Shown here piece after piece: positions 17,299 through 37,706 of a stretch of DNA of 38,946 nucleotides (positions within the stretch are counted from its first letter, which is position 1; the number at the start of each line of letters is the position of its first letter). The notes beneath the pieces were generated by a model, which worked only from the letters and a program-made list of their open reading frames with translations, searched no databases and had not been told where the DNA came from. Origin of the DNA: Desulfobulbaceae bacterium (lineage in GTDB: Bacteria; Desulfobacterota; Desulfobulbia; Desulfobulbales; Desulfobulbaceae); the NCBI GenBank assembly GCA_011391865.1, contig JAABPV010000025.1, positions 1 through 38,946 of the forward strand, in the 5' to 3' direction. The position numbers and the translations under genes are program-made.

Positions 17299-17450
17299 AT
17301 TGAGCGCGTGTTTTTTGCGACAGGCCAGCAAGATTGCTTTGCTCCGGGCTTGCGGTGCCCTGTGTTCTGTGTTATGAAAAGCTATGTTCCGGCATCGGCA
17401 GGACAATGCCATTGCCGCCGCCTCGCCAGTCATCACCAAAGGAGGGAATT

Positions 17451-18605
17451 ATGAAACTGCGCGCCGTTCTTGCGGCCTGCCTGCTACTTTGCGCGGCAGA
17501 ACCGCAGGCCCATGAGATTCATCTGAAAAATGGCAAAATCATCGAGACGGAAACGGTCTGGCGGCAAGGGGATGCCGTGCTGTATGAAAAATACGGCGGC
17601 ACCATCACCCTCCCTGCACATCAAGTGCAGGAAATCAGCTACGCCAAGAATCAGAAAGCCGTGGAAACGCCGACAGCGAGCAGCAATCTGGCGGGCCAGC
17701 TCCGTGAACGTCTTCAGCCAAAAACTCCACTGGAGGAGGCAAGCCTGCGCACTTTGGCGGTGAAAACCGTGGTCGGTTTCGGCTCCGGTTTTTTCATCAG
17801 CGAGAACGGGCTAATTGTCACCAACAAGCATGTGGTGCGGGGCAGCGAGGAGGACACTGCCCAGATTCGCAAGCAAATTGATCAGTTCAGCGATGAGATT
17901 GGCGAATACGGACGGCAGCTCGGCCAGCTGCGGAAGAGCATCGATCAGCGGCAGAGCGATATCAGGCGGCACAGGGAAATTTTGCGCGAGGCCGAGATGA
18001 GCGGGCGGGCCGACGAACGGCAGCTCGCCTTGCGCAAGAAAGAGCTGGACGCATTTGAAGCCTCGTTGGCGGCGGATGAAAAAAGATATCGCGAGGCGCA
18101 GCGGGATTATGACAGCGTCAAAGGCAATGCGGACAGACAGGCCGAGCAGTTCCGGGACGGCCAGCGGCAGCTTGCCCGGCAGGATTCGTTTGAGGTCATT
18201 CTGGCGGATCAGACCAAGCTACACGCCAAGCTCTGCGCAATCAGCCCGGAGCATGATTTAGCTCTGCTGCAAATCGAAGATGCCGCCACGCCGCGCCTTG
18301 AGCCGGTCAAACGGGACAGCCTGACGCTGGGGCAGCAGGTCTACGCCTTGGGCAGCCCGGCGGATCTCAGCCTGCAAAACACTGTGACATCCGGGGTGCT
18401 GTCCGGCTTCCGGGCCAATTTCATCCAGACCAACGCCCAGATTTATCCGGGCAACAGCGGCGGCCCGCTGATCGATGAGCAGGGCCGCGTGATCGGGGTC
18501 AACACGATGAAGGAGCTGACCAGAAAATTCGAAGGACTGGGCTTCGCCATCCCGATAGAGACAGTTTTCGCTGAATTCAAAGAACACCTGCCGGAGTCTG
18601 ATTGA
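17451..18605 (+). CDS. secreted trypsin-like (HtrA-type) serine protease with coiled-coil insertion
   Basis: The 384-residue protein has a signal peptide (residues 1-20, ending PQA|HE), a small beta-rich segment (about 21-66), and a trypsin-like domain with His127 (TNKHVV), Asp269 (EHDLALL) and Ser336 (GNSGGPL). Between His and Asp lies an unusually long charged helical stretch, about residues 133-245, rich in Arg, Glu and Gln and probably a coiled coil. There is no PDZ domain. It likely acts in the periplasm on misfolded or specific substrates; the insertion could mediate oligomer or substrate contacts. The ATG at 17451 follows AGGAGG by 5 nt. It faces the membrane coiled-coil gene with only 3 bp between stop codons. 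Confidence 0.85.
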   Translation: MKLRAVLAACLLLCAAEPQAHEIHLKNGKIIETETVWRQGDAVLYEKYGGTITLPAHQVQEISYAKNQKAVETPTASSNLAGQLRERLQPKTPLEEASLRTLAVKTVVGFGSGFFISENGLIVTNKHVVRGSEEDTAQIRKQIDQFSDEIGEYGRQLGQLRKSIDQRQSDIRRHREILREAEMSGRADERQLALRKKELDAFEASLAADEKRYREAQRDYDSVKGNADRQAEQFRDGQRQLARQDSFEVILADQTKLHAKLCAISPEHDLALLQIEDAATPRLEPVKRDSLTLGQQVYALGSPADLSLQNTVTSGVLSGFRANFIQTNAQIYPGNSGGPLIDEQGRVIGVNTMKELTRKFEGLGFAIPIETVFAEFKEHLPESD

Positions 18606-33149: not shown

Positions 33150-33293
33150 TTGATATTGGGGCTGTTAATTTGTTGATAAGCGGCCTAAGCTGCTGAATTC
33201 AATAAAGACAGCCTGTTGATAAGTTGTGAGTTCTTTTGTTGAAAACTCGCGCCGTTCCCGGCCTGCCCGCCAGTTATCAACACGTTTTCAACA
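33150..33293. promoter_or_regulatory. cluster of DnaA-box-like sites upstream of dnaN (candidate oriC)
   Basis: Three exact TTATCAACA sites occur: 33171-33179 (-), 33214-33222 (-) and 33274-33282 (+). Three near matches accompany them: ATATCAACA at 33150-33158 (-), and TTTTCAACA at 33237-33245 (-) and 33285-33293 (+). TTATCAACA differs from the consensus TTATCCACA by one base. The sites occupy the AT-rich 311-bp gap between divergent dnaN and the radical SAM gene, a typical setting for an origin or a DnaA-regulated promoter. Nothing else was recognised in the gap. Confidence 0.65.
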
Positions 33294-33426
33294 GGGGGCG
33301 GCGCAGGGGCTGAAGAAGAAAATATACCAATTCGCCGCCGTGGTGACGATCTTTTCTTCTCCTGCCGGTTGCAATTCCGCCCGGATTGAGGTAACTCTGC
33401 GGGGGAACTCAACCCCGCGCGCGCCC

Positions 33427-35088
33427 ATGCTCCATCTGATCAGCCTGAACTGCCGCTACACCCATTCCTGTCTGGCCCAGTTCTGCCTGCGGGCCGAACT
33501 GGAACGCCGCCTGCCGGAACTGCCTGTCCGTCTCAGCCAGTTCACACTCAACGACCCGTATTACGCGACCTTGCTGCGGATCAGCGGCCAGCCAGCCAAG
33601 GCCTTGCTCTTCTCGGTTTATGTCTGGAATCACGCTTATATCCGCCGCTTGACCGCTGATCTGGCCCGACTGCGGCCTGAGCTGCCGCTCATTCTCGGCG
33701 GGCCGCAGGCGGCGGCGATGACCGGGCTGCCATCTAACTGCACGGTTTTTATTGGCGAGATAGAAAGCGCGGCAGATGACTTTTTCCACGATCTGCGCTG
33801 TGGCAGACTGAAGCCTGTGTACAAGGCCGCGCCCAGCCACAGCTTTCCCTCGCCGTACAAGCCGGATGACTTCAGCACGCACCTGAAAAACCGGCAGGTG
33901 TATTACGAATCCTCGCGGGGCTGTCCGTTCTCCTGCTCGTATTGTTTGTCGTCCATTTCTAAAGGAGTGCGCCACAAGCCGCTGGAGCTGGTGAAAGAAG
34001 AGCTACGCGGCCTGATTGCCGCCAAACCGCTGATCATCAAATTTGTTGACCGTACCTTCAACGACAAGCCGGAACGGGCCGCCACGATTTGGCGCTTCTT
34101 GCTCGACGAGGGCCAAGGCGTTCGCTTTCATTTTGAGATTGCTCCTGACCGTTTCACCGAGGATCTGTTCGCTCTGCTGGAACAAATGCCATGCGATTTG
34201 TTTCAATTTGAAATCGGTATTCAGAGCTGCAATGCCGCGACATTGGCGGCTGTCCGGCGGCAGATGGATTTGCCGCAGGCTGAAGCGAACATCCGCCGCT
34301 TGATCGCGCTGAACAGCATTCACATTCACGCTGATCTTATTCTCGGCTTGCCTTTTGAAGACGCGGCCAGCTTCCGCCAGTCGTTCAACCGGGTTTTCTG
34401 CTGCCGCCCGCATCACGTTCAGCTCGGCCTGCTCAAGGTGCTGCCGGAAACCGAGATGCAGGCGCGGGCAACGGAATTTGGCCTGCTCCATTGCGCCGAG
34501 CCGCCCTATGATGTGCTGGCCACGCGCTGGCTGCCGCATGAGGAACTGCGCGATTTGTATGAATTTTGCGAATGCGCCGAGGCGTTTCACAACAACCGTT
34601 TTTTCCCCTCGCTCTGGGCGTATCTGCTTCAGCGCGGCGAGGAGCCGTTCCGCTTTTTCCACAGCCTGCTGGAACTCTGCCGCCAGCGCGGGTTCTTTCA
34701 GCTGGCGCAGACGCAGGTACTGATGAGCAGCCTGCTGGCCGAGTTGGCCCGGCAGCGTGGCGACGGCCCGCTGCTGCTGGAGCTGCTCCGCTACGACTGG
34801 CTGCGCTGCGGCCATCGTTTCCTGCCGGAGGATCTGTGCGCTGCGCAGCCGTCCGCGTTGCGCGACCGCCTGCGCCAGACTTTGCCGGAGGCGATTGAGG
34901 GCTTGTTCAGCAGCAGAACGCGGACGGAATTTCTCAAACAGACCAGCTTGCTGGAGCTGTCCGCCGAGGCGATGGCGGTTCTTGGCTTGGACGAAAGGGC
35001 GGACATCGTTGCTCTGCTGCCGGAGCAGACGGGCGGCGTACTGAAGCATTGCCGGGCAGTTGTATTGCCGGGGGATGAAAGGGGGTGA
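33427..35088 (+). CDS. B12-binding domain radical SAM protein (DUF4080 type)
   Basis: The 553-residue protein has an N-terminal B12-binding-like Rossmann domain (residues 1-130; ILGGPQA), a radical SAM domain with Cys166-x3-Cys170-x2-Cys173 (SRGCPFSCSYC), FVDRTFNDKPERA, and FEIGIQS, and a C-terminal helical DUF4080 region. The substrate of these proteins is unknown. The domain starts at the ATG at 33427, but the ribosome site is poor (GGGGGAA is too far upstream), and the frame is open back to 33226, so the start is uncertain. It runs divergently from dnaN, and the Roco gene follows after 5 bp. Confidence 0.85.
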   Translation: MLHLISLNCRYTHSCLAQFCLRAELERRLPELPVRLSQFTLNDPYYATLLRISGQPAKALLFSVYVWNHAYIRRLTADLARLRPELPLILGGPQAAAMTGLPSNCTVFIGEIESAADDFFHDLRCGRLKPVYKAAPSHSFPSPYKPDDFSTHLKNRQVYYESSRGCPFSCSYCLSSISKGVRHKPLELVKEELRGLIAAKPLIIKFVDRTFNDKPERAATIWRFLLDEGQGVRFHFEIAPDRFTEDLFALLEQMPCDLFQFEIGIQSCNAATLAAVRRQMDLPQAEANIRRLIALNSIHIHADLILGLPFEDAASFRQSFNRVFCCRPHHVQLGLLKVLPETEMQARATEFGLLHCAEPPYDVLATRWLPHEELRDLYEFCECAEAFHNNRFFPSLWAYLLQRGEEPFRFFHSLLELCRQRGFFQLAQTQVLMSSLLAELARQRGDGPLLLELLRYDWLRCGHRFLPEDLCAAQPSALRDRLRQTLPEAIEGLFSSRTRTEFLKQTSLLELSAEAMAVLGLDERADIVALLPEQTGGVLKHCRAVVLPGDERG

Positions 35089-35093
35089 GAGAA

Positions 35094-37706
35094 ATGGCAT
35101 CGAATGATTTAGAAATTATCAAAAAGATAGAAAAAACAACAGGTAAGCGGCTGCGCAGATTTAAAAGATTCAAGCCGTCTGAGCCGTGTTATGTTGTCAA
35201 TGAGCAGGAGCAGGTCTTAGCCCTGAATTTGTGGGATGCAGGTCTCAGCAATGCAGACTGCTATCTGGTCCAGCAGTTCGTCAATCTTCAGACGCTCGAT
35301 TTAAGCGGGAATCAGATCAGTGATTATTCCTTTCTCAAAGAGCTTGACCAGCTTCAGTGGCTCGATTTAAGCGGGAATCAGATCAGCGACATTTCCTTTC
35401 CCAAGCAGCTCGTTAATCTTCAGACGCTCTCTTTAAGCTGGAATGATATCAGCGATATTTCCTCTCTCCAGCAGCTCGTCAATCTTCAGTCGCTCGATTT
35501 AAGTTTTAATAAAATCTGCGATATTTCCTTTCTCAAAGAGCTTGACCAGCTTCAATGGCTCGATTTACGTTCTAATAAGATCATCAGGCTGCCGCAATGG
35601 ATTGCGGAGCATTCCCCTGAGATTGTTTATTCTACCAACCTGGATCAGAACACGATCAATGTCGGCGGCAATCCCCTGACTCATCCCCCGCCGGAAATCA
35701 TCCAACAAGGCCGTGAAGCCATCCGCGCTTATTTCCGCTCACTCGAAAAAGACGAGGCAGTGACGCTGCACGAAGCCAAGGTGCTGCTGGTCGGCGACGG
35801 CAAGGCTGGAAAAACCTCGCTGCTCAAACGGCTCCAAGGCTTGCCCTTTGATGAGCATGAATCCCAGACGCACGGCATCAACGTTCAGCCACTTTTAGGC
35901 AGCGAAATAGCAGGTTTTGCCAATCCTGACGAAGACTGCCGCCTGCATTTCTGGGATTTCGGCGGCCAAGAGATCATGCACGCCTCGCACCGCTTTTTCA
36001 TGAGCAAGCGATCTCTGTATATCCTCGTTTTAGATAGCCGCGACGACACCGGCAGATGTCATTGGCGTTGGCTTCGGCACATCGAGAAATATGGCGACAA
36101 GCCGCCGTGTATCGTGGCCATGAACAAGATGGATGCAAATCCGTCTTACAACATCGAGCAGAAGAGCATCAACTCCCGATTTCCTGCAATAGAAAACCGC
36201 TTCTTCCAAATCTCCTGCAAAAGCAATGACGGCCTGCCGGAATTAGTGCGCAGCATGGCCGCGTCTGTTCCGAAAACGCCGCTGTACGGCTTAGTGATCA
36301 GCAAATCGTGGCTGACAATTAGAAAGCGGCTGGAAACAGCGACCGAAGAGCAAAATTACATCAGCCGGGAGCAGTTCCTTGCAATCTGCAAAGAACACGG
36401 CGTGCAGGATGAGGAAAGCCGGATGACGCTGCTGAAGTTCCTCAATGATCTCGGCACGGTGCTCTTTTTTGAAAAGCTTAAACTTGCCGACATCTATGTG
36501 CTTGATCCGCATTGGGTGACAGTCGGGGTGTATAAAATCATCAATTCGGCAAAGACCAAAGATGGCCTTTTGCGCGAGGAGGATTTGGAATTCATCCTCA
36601 ATCAGGAGCCAGTCCGCGCCGATGAATATGACCCGGCCAAAAAAGCATTTGCCTACACGGTGCGGGAGCAGGAATATCTTGTCCGTATCATGGAGGAATT
36701 TGAGCTGTGCTACCGCTATGACAAGCACCTGCACATCCTGCCCAGCCAGCTGCCCAAAGAACCTGAACAGGAGCCGGAGCTGCGCGGCGGCAATCTGCTC
36801 CGCTTCATCATGGAATACGATTTCCTGCCGTCATCGCTTTTCCCGCGCCTCATGGTTCGCCTGAAAGAAGATATTCCAGACCGGCGGCAGCAGTGGCGGC
36901 ACGGGATGTATTTGGAAAACAAGCAGTTTGGCGTGCAGGCAATTGTCAGAATGGAGGAGCAAAGCAGCAGAATCACGATCAGCATTTACGGCGGGCCGCA
37001 CGATAAGCAGCGGTATCTGTGCGTGATTCGGCACCACATTGCAGGTCTTGGCTTTCAAGAGCTGAAGCCGAAAGAGCTGGTGCCGCTGCCGGGACACGAG
37101 GACGCGCTTGTGGAATATCAAGTTCTGCTTGGTCACGAGCAGGAGGGAATAGCTCAATACTTTGATGGAAAGCTGCGGAAATTCTTTTCTGTCTCAGAGT
37201 TGTTAGATAATATTGTCAGCAAACATGAACGAAGTAAGGAGGGGAATATTATGATTCATCTGGAAAATATCGGCAATCCGCAAATGACGCAGACGAACAG
37301 CCAGCAGCAATCTCAGCATCAGCAGCAGTCAGCCAATCTGCTCAAAGAGGCGCAAGGGCTGTTCCACAATCTGAAAGAGGATATCATTGCAGAAGCTGAC
37401 ATTGAATTCGATGATGCAAAGGAGAAGAAACGGGTAGAAAACGAGCTGACCAAGGCGGAAAAAGCTCTTGCCGAAGCGGAAAGCGCAGCCGCAGAAGGGA
37501 AGGAACCGGATGCCGCTGCAAAAAGCCGCTTGGAGGAATTCTTCACCAGCCTTGCCGACAAGAGTTCCCGCCTCGGCAAGCTGCTGGAATCTGTTGATCA
37601 AGGCGCGGAAAAAGTGAGAAAATTGGCCCGCACCTACAACAAGGTTGCCGAAAACATCGGCCTGCCTTCTGTGCCGCCGCTGCTGCTGGGCAAGGAGCAA
37701 GGGTGA
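35094..37706 (+). CDS. LRR-Roc-COR (Roco family) GTPase with C-terminal helical extension
   Basis: The 870-residue protein has five to six 22-residue leucine-rich repeats (about 43-168; LDLSGNQISDISF type), a Roc GTPase (about 227-390) with P-loop GDGKAGKTS, switch WDFGGQEIMHASH and NKMD, and a COR dimerisation region (about 400-700). The last 150 residues begin with a Gln-rich linker (QQQSQHQQQ) and continue as charged helices. Roco proteins cycle between monomer and dimer with GTP; bacterial targets are mostly unknown. The ATG at 35094 follows GGGGG by 8 nt. It starts 5 bp after the radical SAM gene, so they may be co-transcribed. A second ribosome site inside the gene (37235-37250) could express the C-terminal part separately. 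Confidence 0.9.
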   Translation: MASNDLEIIKKIEKTTGKRLRRFKRFKPSEPCYVVNEQEQVLALNLWDAGLSNADCYLVQQFVNLQTLDLSGNQISDYSFLKELDQLQWLDLSGNQISDISFPKQLVNLQTLSLSWNDISDISSLQQLVNLQSLDLSFNKICDISFLKELDQLQWLDLRSNKIIRLPQWIAEHSPEIVYSTNLDQNTINVGGNPLTHPPPEIIQQGREAIRAYFRSLEKDEAVTLHEAKVLLVGDGKAGKTSLLKRLQGLPFDEHESQTHGINVQPLLGSEIAGFANPDEDCRLHFWDFGGQEIMHASHRFFMSKRSLYILVLDSRDDTGRCHWRWLRHIEKYGDKPPCIVAMNKMDANPSYNIEQKSINSRFPAIENRFFQISCKSNDGLPELVRSMAASVPKTPLYGLVISKSWLTIRKRLETATEEQNYISREQFLAICKEHGVQDEESRMTLLKFLNDLGTVLFFEKLKLADIYVLDPHWVTVGVYKIINSAKTKDGLLREEDLEFILNQEPVRADEYDPAKKAFAYTVREQEYLVRIMEEFELCYRYDKHLHILPSQLPKEPEQEPELRGGNLLRFIMEYDFLPSSLFPRLMVRLKEDIPDRRQQWRHGMYLENKQFGVQAIVRMEEQSSRITISIYGGPHDKQRYLCVIRHHIAGLGFQELKPKELVPLPGHEDALVEYQVLLGHEQEGIAQYFDGKLRKFFSVSELLDNIVSKHERSKEGNIMIHLENIGNPQMTQTNSQQQSQHQQQSANLLKEAQGLFHNLKEDIIAEADIEFDDAKEKKRVENELTKAEKALAEAESAAAEGKEPDAAAKSRLEEFFTSLADKSSRLGKLLESVDQGAEKVRKLARTYNKVAENIGLPSVPPLLLGKEQG
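35280..35580 (+). repeat. 66-bp repeats encoding the leucine-rich repeats
   Basis: The LRR region is built of 66-bp units (22 codons) of two kinds that alternate: units containing CAATCTTCAGACGCTC (VNLQTL) and units containing CTTGACCAGCTTCA (DQLQWL). Near-identical stretches between units indicate recent duplication within the gene. Confidence 0.75.
37235..37253 (+). promoter_or_regulatory. internal ribosome-binding site and in-frame ATG in the Roco gene
   Basis: TAAGGAGG (37235-37242), complementary to the 16S rRNA 3' end, lies 8 nt before ATG 37251, in frame with the Roco protein. Translation from here would give a 151-residue protein (37251-37706) starting MIHLENIGNPQMTQ, consisting of the Gln-rich linker and helical C-terminal domain alone. 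The site is better than that of the full-length gene. Confidence 0.55.

Follow-up and report, generated by a model that had tools for sequence, protein, structure and literature searches.

Bacterial Roco proteins are standard models for LRRK2, the human Parkinson's protein, and most work treats them as one polypeptide chain that stops at COR. Known members such as Chlorobium tepidum Roco share an LRR-Roc-COR-A-COR-B architecture (PMC11052575, PMC6337361), in which COR-B is the dimerisation half of COR and bears the dimer interface. According to a 2019 review, prokaryotic Roco proteins consist of LRR-RocCOR and nothing further. Unlike these, the Roco gene on a 38,946-nucleotide stretch of DNA from a Desulfobulbaceae bacterium (contig JAABPV010000025.1, positions 1–38,946, henceforth termed the window) encodes an additional helical tail and appears to contain a probable second start. 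The locus thereby raises the question of whether one reading frame specifies two proteins, a complete Roco GTPase and a free copy of its C-terminal domain.

The use of an in-frame start to release a C-terminal domain as a separate protein is a known kind of gene organization, exemplified by Cas11, Rpn proteins and endolysins, and apparently new for Roco proteins: no report of an internal start in a Roco protein turned up in the literature searched, the coverage of which was incomplete. In the genes-within-genes RpnL/RpnS, an internal in-frame start with its own ribosome-binding site yields the C-terminal domain as a free copy, which binds the full-length protein (PMC10327210). The Cas11 small subunit arises from an internal start of cas8 or cas10d and supplies extra copies of the C-terminal domain of the large subunit (PMC11899642, PMC10212523). 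In two-polypeptide phage endolysins, the C-terminal part freed by an internal in-frame start forms multimers with the full-length protein (PMC9430671, PMC12203907).

Results

The open reading frame list and Pfam define a full-length LRR-Roc-COR gene with a C-terminal tail on the plus strand (35094–37706), encoding 870 amino acids from ATG 35094. An alternative GTG at 35085, upstream of this codon, would yield 873 amino acids; ATG 35094 is the best choice of start. Most Electrothrix orthologs keep the same MASND start, with MTSND or MVSND in two. The Shine-Dalgarno sequence of the full-length start, AAAGGGGGTGAG (35078–35089, plus strand), has a pairing energy of -15.0 kcal/mol, and the local mRNA folding energy is -4.5 kcal/mol, similar to that of the internal site described below. 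Leucine-rich repeats at the N-terminus (Pfam LRR_4, 4.9e-22; LRR_8) are followed on the same strand by the Roc GTPase domain (35778–36134; PF08477, residues 232–350, 3e-29), COR-A (36303–36725; PF16095, residues 407–547, 7e-34) and COR-B (36792–37211; PF25497, residues 570–709, 7e-22). The Roc, COR-A and COR-B matches far exceed the Pfam cut-offs and establish a Roco architecture with the same domain order as Chlorobium tepidum Roco.

Two observations concern the region upstream of this gene. A radical-SAM/DUF4080 gene (33226–35088) overlaps the Roco start region at GTG 35085 (35085–35096). Because the upstream gene ends inside this region, the arrangement suggests that the two genes are translationally coupled in the window, unlike in the Electrothrix loci. 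In five Electrothrix Roco genes (L011, 3393–3505, and also L013, L014, L015 and L016), the MASND or MTSND start is preceded by an open, conserved stretch (..GRFANRPYLCR..LLIQDTMASND) with a weak Shine-Dalgarno sequence; this stretch would be part of a longer N-terminus or else a conserved leader.

The candidate internal start lies near the 3' end of the gene. An internal Shine-Dalgarno sequence, TAAGGAGG (37235–37242, plus strand), is separated by the 8-nt spacer GGAATATT from an ATG (37251–37253, plus strand) that is in frame with the Roco open reading frame (35085/35094–37706) and followed by 151 codons up to the stop at 37706. The internal methionine is residue 723 counted from GTG 35085 and residue 720 from ATG 35094. 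These elements are as the preliminary description had them, which also called the Shine-Dalgarno sequence the strongest noted in the window. That statement holds among internal sites: its pairing energy of -12.6 kcal/mol is the best among the 617 internal in-frame NTG codons of 22 genes in the window. Overall it does not hold, as the gene's own start pairs more strongly. The mRNA from -30 to +30 around ATG 37251 is likewise the least structured of the 617 (-4.4 kcal/mol; mean -17.9).

The pattern TAAGGAGG-N4-10-ATG occurs once in the window against 0.05 occurrences expected from shuffled sequences. Across the whole 2.8-Mb genome, AAGGAGG-N5-10-ATG is found 121 times compared with 18 for a reversed control pattern, and most such sites are therefore probably genuine starts. 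Still, a few chance internal in-frame AAGGAGG-ATG sites are expected per genome, and the sequence by itself is no proof. No promoter-like match was detected on the sense strand just upstream of ATG 37251, so that the full-length transcript probably serves as the template for internal initiation. Elsewhere in the window, an AAGGAGG-N5-ATG element at 17439–17453 points to ATG 17451 as the likely start of an open reading frame listed from TTG 17334.

The site was proposed to sit at the border between COR and a Gln-rich linker plus helical tail, and domain boundaries and structure prediction bear this out. COR-B ends at residue 709 (Pfam), 13 residues ahead of the internal methionine. In the AlphaFold model of the COR-B-tail fragment, a low-pLDDT, Gln-rich linker (37239–37310, plus strand; fragment residues 160–183) connects two folded domains; this linker is predicted to be disordered (pLDDT <50) and begins at the internal methionine, where pLDDT is 27–29. 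From this arrangement, the free product would correspond to a whole domain. The predicted free tail protein (37251–37706, plus strand) comprises 151 amino acids with a mass of about 16.5 kDa (at 110 Da per residue), most of which is predicted by AlphaFold to form a conserved helical bundle (model helices 10–136; 37278–37658, plus strand; mean pLDDT 88).

Of all parts of the protein, the tail is the most conserved among the orthologs, with a mean column identity of 82% vs 57% for the whole protein. The stretch from COR-B to the tail is variable and contains indels. Searches of Pfam and NCBIfam gave no useful family match for the tail. Comparison with the PDB returned a best Foldseek E value of 0.7 and VIA Z scores no higher than 9.3, comparable to those of generic helical bundles. 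PADLOC models did not match the window protein and gave weak LeoBC matches in homologs.

Conservation of the start region was assessed in seven orthologs, comprising the window gene and six Electrothrix genes. The residue at the internal start is methionine or valine in all seven, and the codon is always ATG or GTG despite indels in the flanks; valine is encoded by GTG in all three cases (usage 0.28). The sequences preceding these codons are AAGGAGGGGAATATT-ATG, AAGGAGAACGTAAC-ATG, AAGGAGGAACGCATT-ATG, AAGGAGCGTATT-GTG, AAGGAGGAACGTATT-ATG, AGAGGGGATTAATATT-GTG and AGAGGGGATAAAACTT-GTG. Homologs retaining Lys-Glu-Gly while losing the purine-rich codons had been named in advance as the pattern that would speak against an internal start; the orthologs display the reverse. 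L013 has lost KEG (KDKE), yet carries AAGGAG 6 nt before GTG, and L012 and L014 encode KEE with AAGGAGG 8 nt before ATG. In L015 and L016, the site is offset by two alignment columns, and its Shine-Dalgarno sequence is both weaker and spaced farther from the start codon.

To compare sites, we used a score defined as Shine-Dalgarno pairing minus local folding energy, the folding term having entered the score after it was seen in the window. By this score, the internal site is the best ATG or GTG in each of the seven orthologs (1 of 22–32 per gene), and in Electrothrix it outscores the gene's own start. Its mean over the seven orthologs is -5.2, compared with +4.5 for the best of 67 control columns, which are conserved RTG positions from five gene families of the same bacteria.

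Outside this set, the internal sites of three distant homologs from Zixibacteria, KSB1 and Desulfobacterales (L019, L020 and L022) also rank first, with GAGGT/AGAGGT 8–11 nt before the start in L019 and L020. The Alteromonadaceae genes L021 and L023 keep the methionine, but have neither a Shine-Dalgarno sequence nor open mRNA; L025 lacks an RTG codon, as does the broken copy L024, and the start region is unremarkable in L074, L079 and L089. The site is thus not a property of the whole tail family, and the predicted internal start belongs to cable-bacterial genes plus a few others.

Whether conservation exceeds codon constraint, as the preliminary description asked, was addressed by synonymous recoding, and the answer depends on the quantity compared. 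Shine-Dalgarno energy alone is significantly better than in synonymous variants only in the window (p 0.013–0.019) and not in the Electrothrix orthologs (p 0.14–0.51). With folding included, the score gives p 0.003 in the window and 0.001–0.28 in the other orthologs, and these values are similar when calibrated on 182 other sites. The combined p is 0.009–0.018 when one member per close pair is used and the discovery sequence is left out, and 0.0007 when all testable lineages are counted, also those lacking the site. These p values are to be read as indicative because the folding term was chosen after the window result, and the homologs available for the conservation test are few and related. 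A general codon comparison gave no signal of synonymous-site constraint at the COR-B/tail junction. Taken at this level, codon usage appears to lend modest support to an internal start.

Discussion

These data lead us to lean, with moderate confidence, towards a real, conserved internal start in the Roco gene. The proposal that the gene could also yield a free 151-residue tail is strengthened to that extent by an initiation region conserved in 7/7 orthologs and ranking first in three distant homologs. The gene probably makes the whole protein plus a free copy of its tail, with in vivo use of the site being what we infer from sequence.

A possible, though doubtful, alternative is that the Lys, Glu, Gly, Asn and Ile codons after COR-B happen to produce a purine-rich, weakly folded mRNA, with Met or Val kept by protein constraint, and that there is either no second product or incidental noise. 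Shine-Dalgarno energy alone, which is not significantly better than in synonymous variants of the Electrothrix orthologs, and the general codon comparison are both compatible with such a coincidence. Moreover, about half of 23 Roco paralogs with unrelated tails contain, at the same border, a Shine-Dalgarno-like stretch of similar energy before an ATG or GTG, a caution that Lys/Glu/Gly-rich boundaries easily mimic such signals. Folding nevertheless separates these look-alikes, which lie in structured contexts (-10 to -21 kcal/mol), from the ortholog sites, which lie in open mRNA (-2 to -8 kcal/mol). A coincidence also sits poorly with first rank in all seven genes, with the outlying position relative to the 67 control columns and with a combined score that beats synonymous variants.

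It is improbable that the methionine is instead an unused relic of a gene fusion, in which an ancestral operon of a Roco gene and a tail gene lost the intervening stop. Such an origin would fit the methionine directly ahead of the tail in most homologs, whose linkers differ, and the resemblance of the residues that follow to protein N-termini (MVETK, MSGEHH, MADESK, MGDKIN). Nonetheless, a search of roughly 1,500 genomes and of plasmids and viral contigs found no stand-alone tail gene, and an unused Shine-Dalgarno sequence should have decayed at 30–60% protein divergence. Shine-Dalgarno-like sequences have also been proposed to slow elongating ribosomes, although this is contested, and the location right at a domain border would suit a pause that lets COR-B fold before the tail emerges. 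Pausing requires neither a conserved ATG or GTG at initiation spacing nor open mRNA, both of which are present, and we regard this explanation as slightly more improbable still.

Under the favoured reading of a genuine internal start, ribosomes initiating at 35094 would make the full LRR-Roc-COR-tail protein, while others loading directly at TAAGGAGG and ATG 37251 on the same mRNA would make the free tail. Because the free tail would have the same sequence as its counterpart in the full protein, it may co-assemble with full Roco or compete for the same partner, and thereby set the stoichiometry or activity of Roco. If free tails bind one another, they could influence how Roco assembles. We hold a role in co-assembly or control with less confidence than the internal start itself, and this applies to any given role. 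Only tentatively do we suggest that in cable bacteria and a few other phyla the Roco GTPase is routinely accompanied by a separate tail subunit translated from an internal start, and works as a two-size assembly in which free tail sets the GTPase or dimer state and which perhaps belongs to an immune-like system. If a second start does supply a free tail, the Roco constructs used for structures miss a natural partner, the free tail could take part in regulating the monomer-dimer cycle, and a GTPase joins the short list of bacterial genes with two proteins in one frame.

The resemblance to Rpn proteins, Cas11 and endolysins is one of working principle. As in RpnL/RpnS, a ribosome-binding site in a Lys-Glu..Met context is present in the Roco gene. 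Rpn proteins are nuclease toxins that carry a hypervariable repeat tail, and their genes contain an internal promoter (PMC10327210); here, by contrast, the body is a GTPase, the tail is the most conserved part and an internal promoter was not detected. Identity with the RpnL/RpnS toxin-antitoxin system was rejected, since Pfam identifies LRR-Roc-COR and no nuclease and the tail, at the column identity given above, is not hypervariable. Like the cas genes, the Roco gene would gain extra copies of a C-terminal domain from its candidate start; the Pfam scan of the Roco protein found no Cas or Cascade large-subunit domain, contradicting membership in Cas8/Cas11. Endolysins, which are cell-wall lytic enzymes without a GTPase, use the kind of in-frame internal start that is predicted here.

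The window genome encodes the tail once, and six Electrothrix genomes from that family, among them Candidatus Electrothrix aarhusensis (MTKO01000064.1), also encode it; in every case it is fused to an LRR-Roco. From this kinship, we infer that the window genome is that of a cable bacterium belonging to the same GTDB family as Electrothrix and to another genus. No gene neighbourhood common to the window and Electrothrix loci and no conserved neighbour were found, and genome searches, plasmids and viral contigs gave no partner gene of the tailed Roco. Distant fused copies occur in Zixibacteria, KSB1, Alteromonadaceae, Desulfobacterales, Anammoxibacter and another deltaproteobacterial bin. An in-frame stop interrupts the Anammoxibacter gene (L024, 3730–6372), whose C-terminus is also aberrant.

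Cable-bacterial genomes contain up to seven Roco genes each (L040–L062). In most of these paralogs, the C-terminus is one of two other short tails, SEGEKMLALA.. or QPKDKEEL.., and the SEGEKMLALA.. type has its own GAGGG..ATG directly after COR-B. Other Roco tails with such sites could behave in the same way in weaker form.

More distant relatives of the tail, recognizable by the motif YNxIAQWxGLPxVPxPF, end other large and small proteins (L076, L077, L080, L081, L082, L083 and L085) in genomes of Algicola, Desulfobacterales and Anammoxibacter. The shorter open reading frames among them (L080, L082 and L085) have other N-terminal parts. As its relatives end several other proteins, the tail seems to be a mobile C-terminal module.
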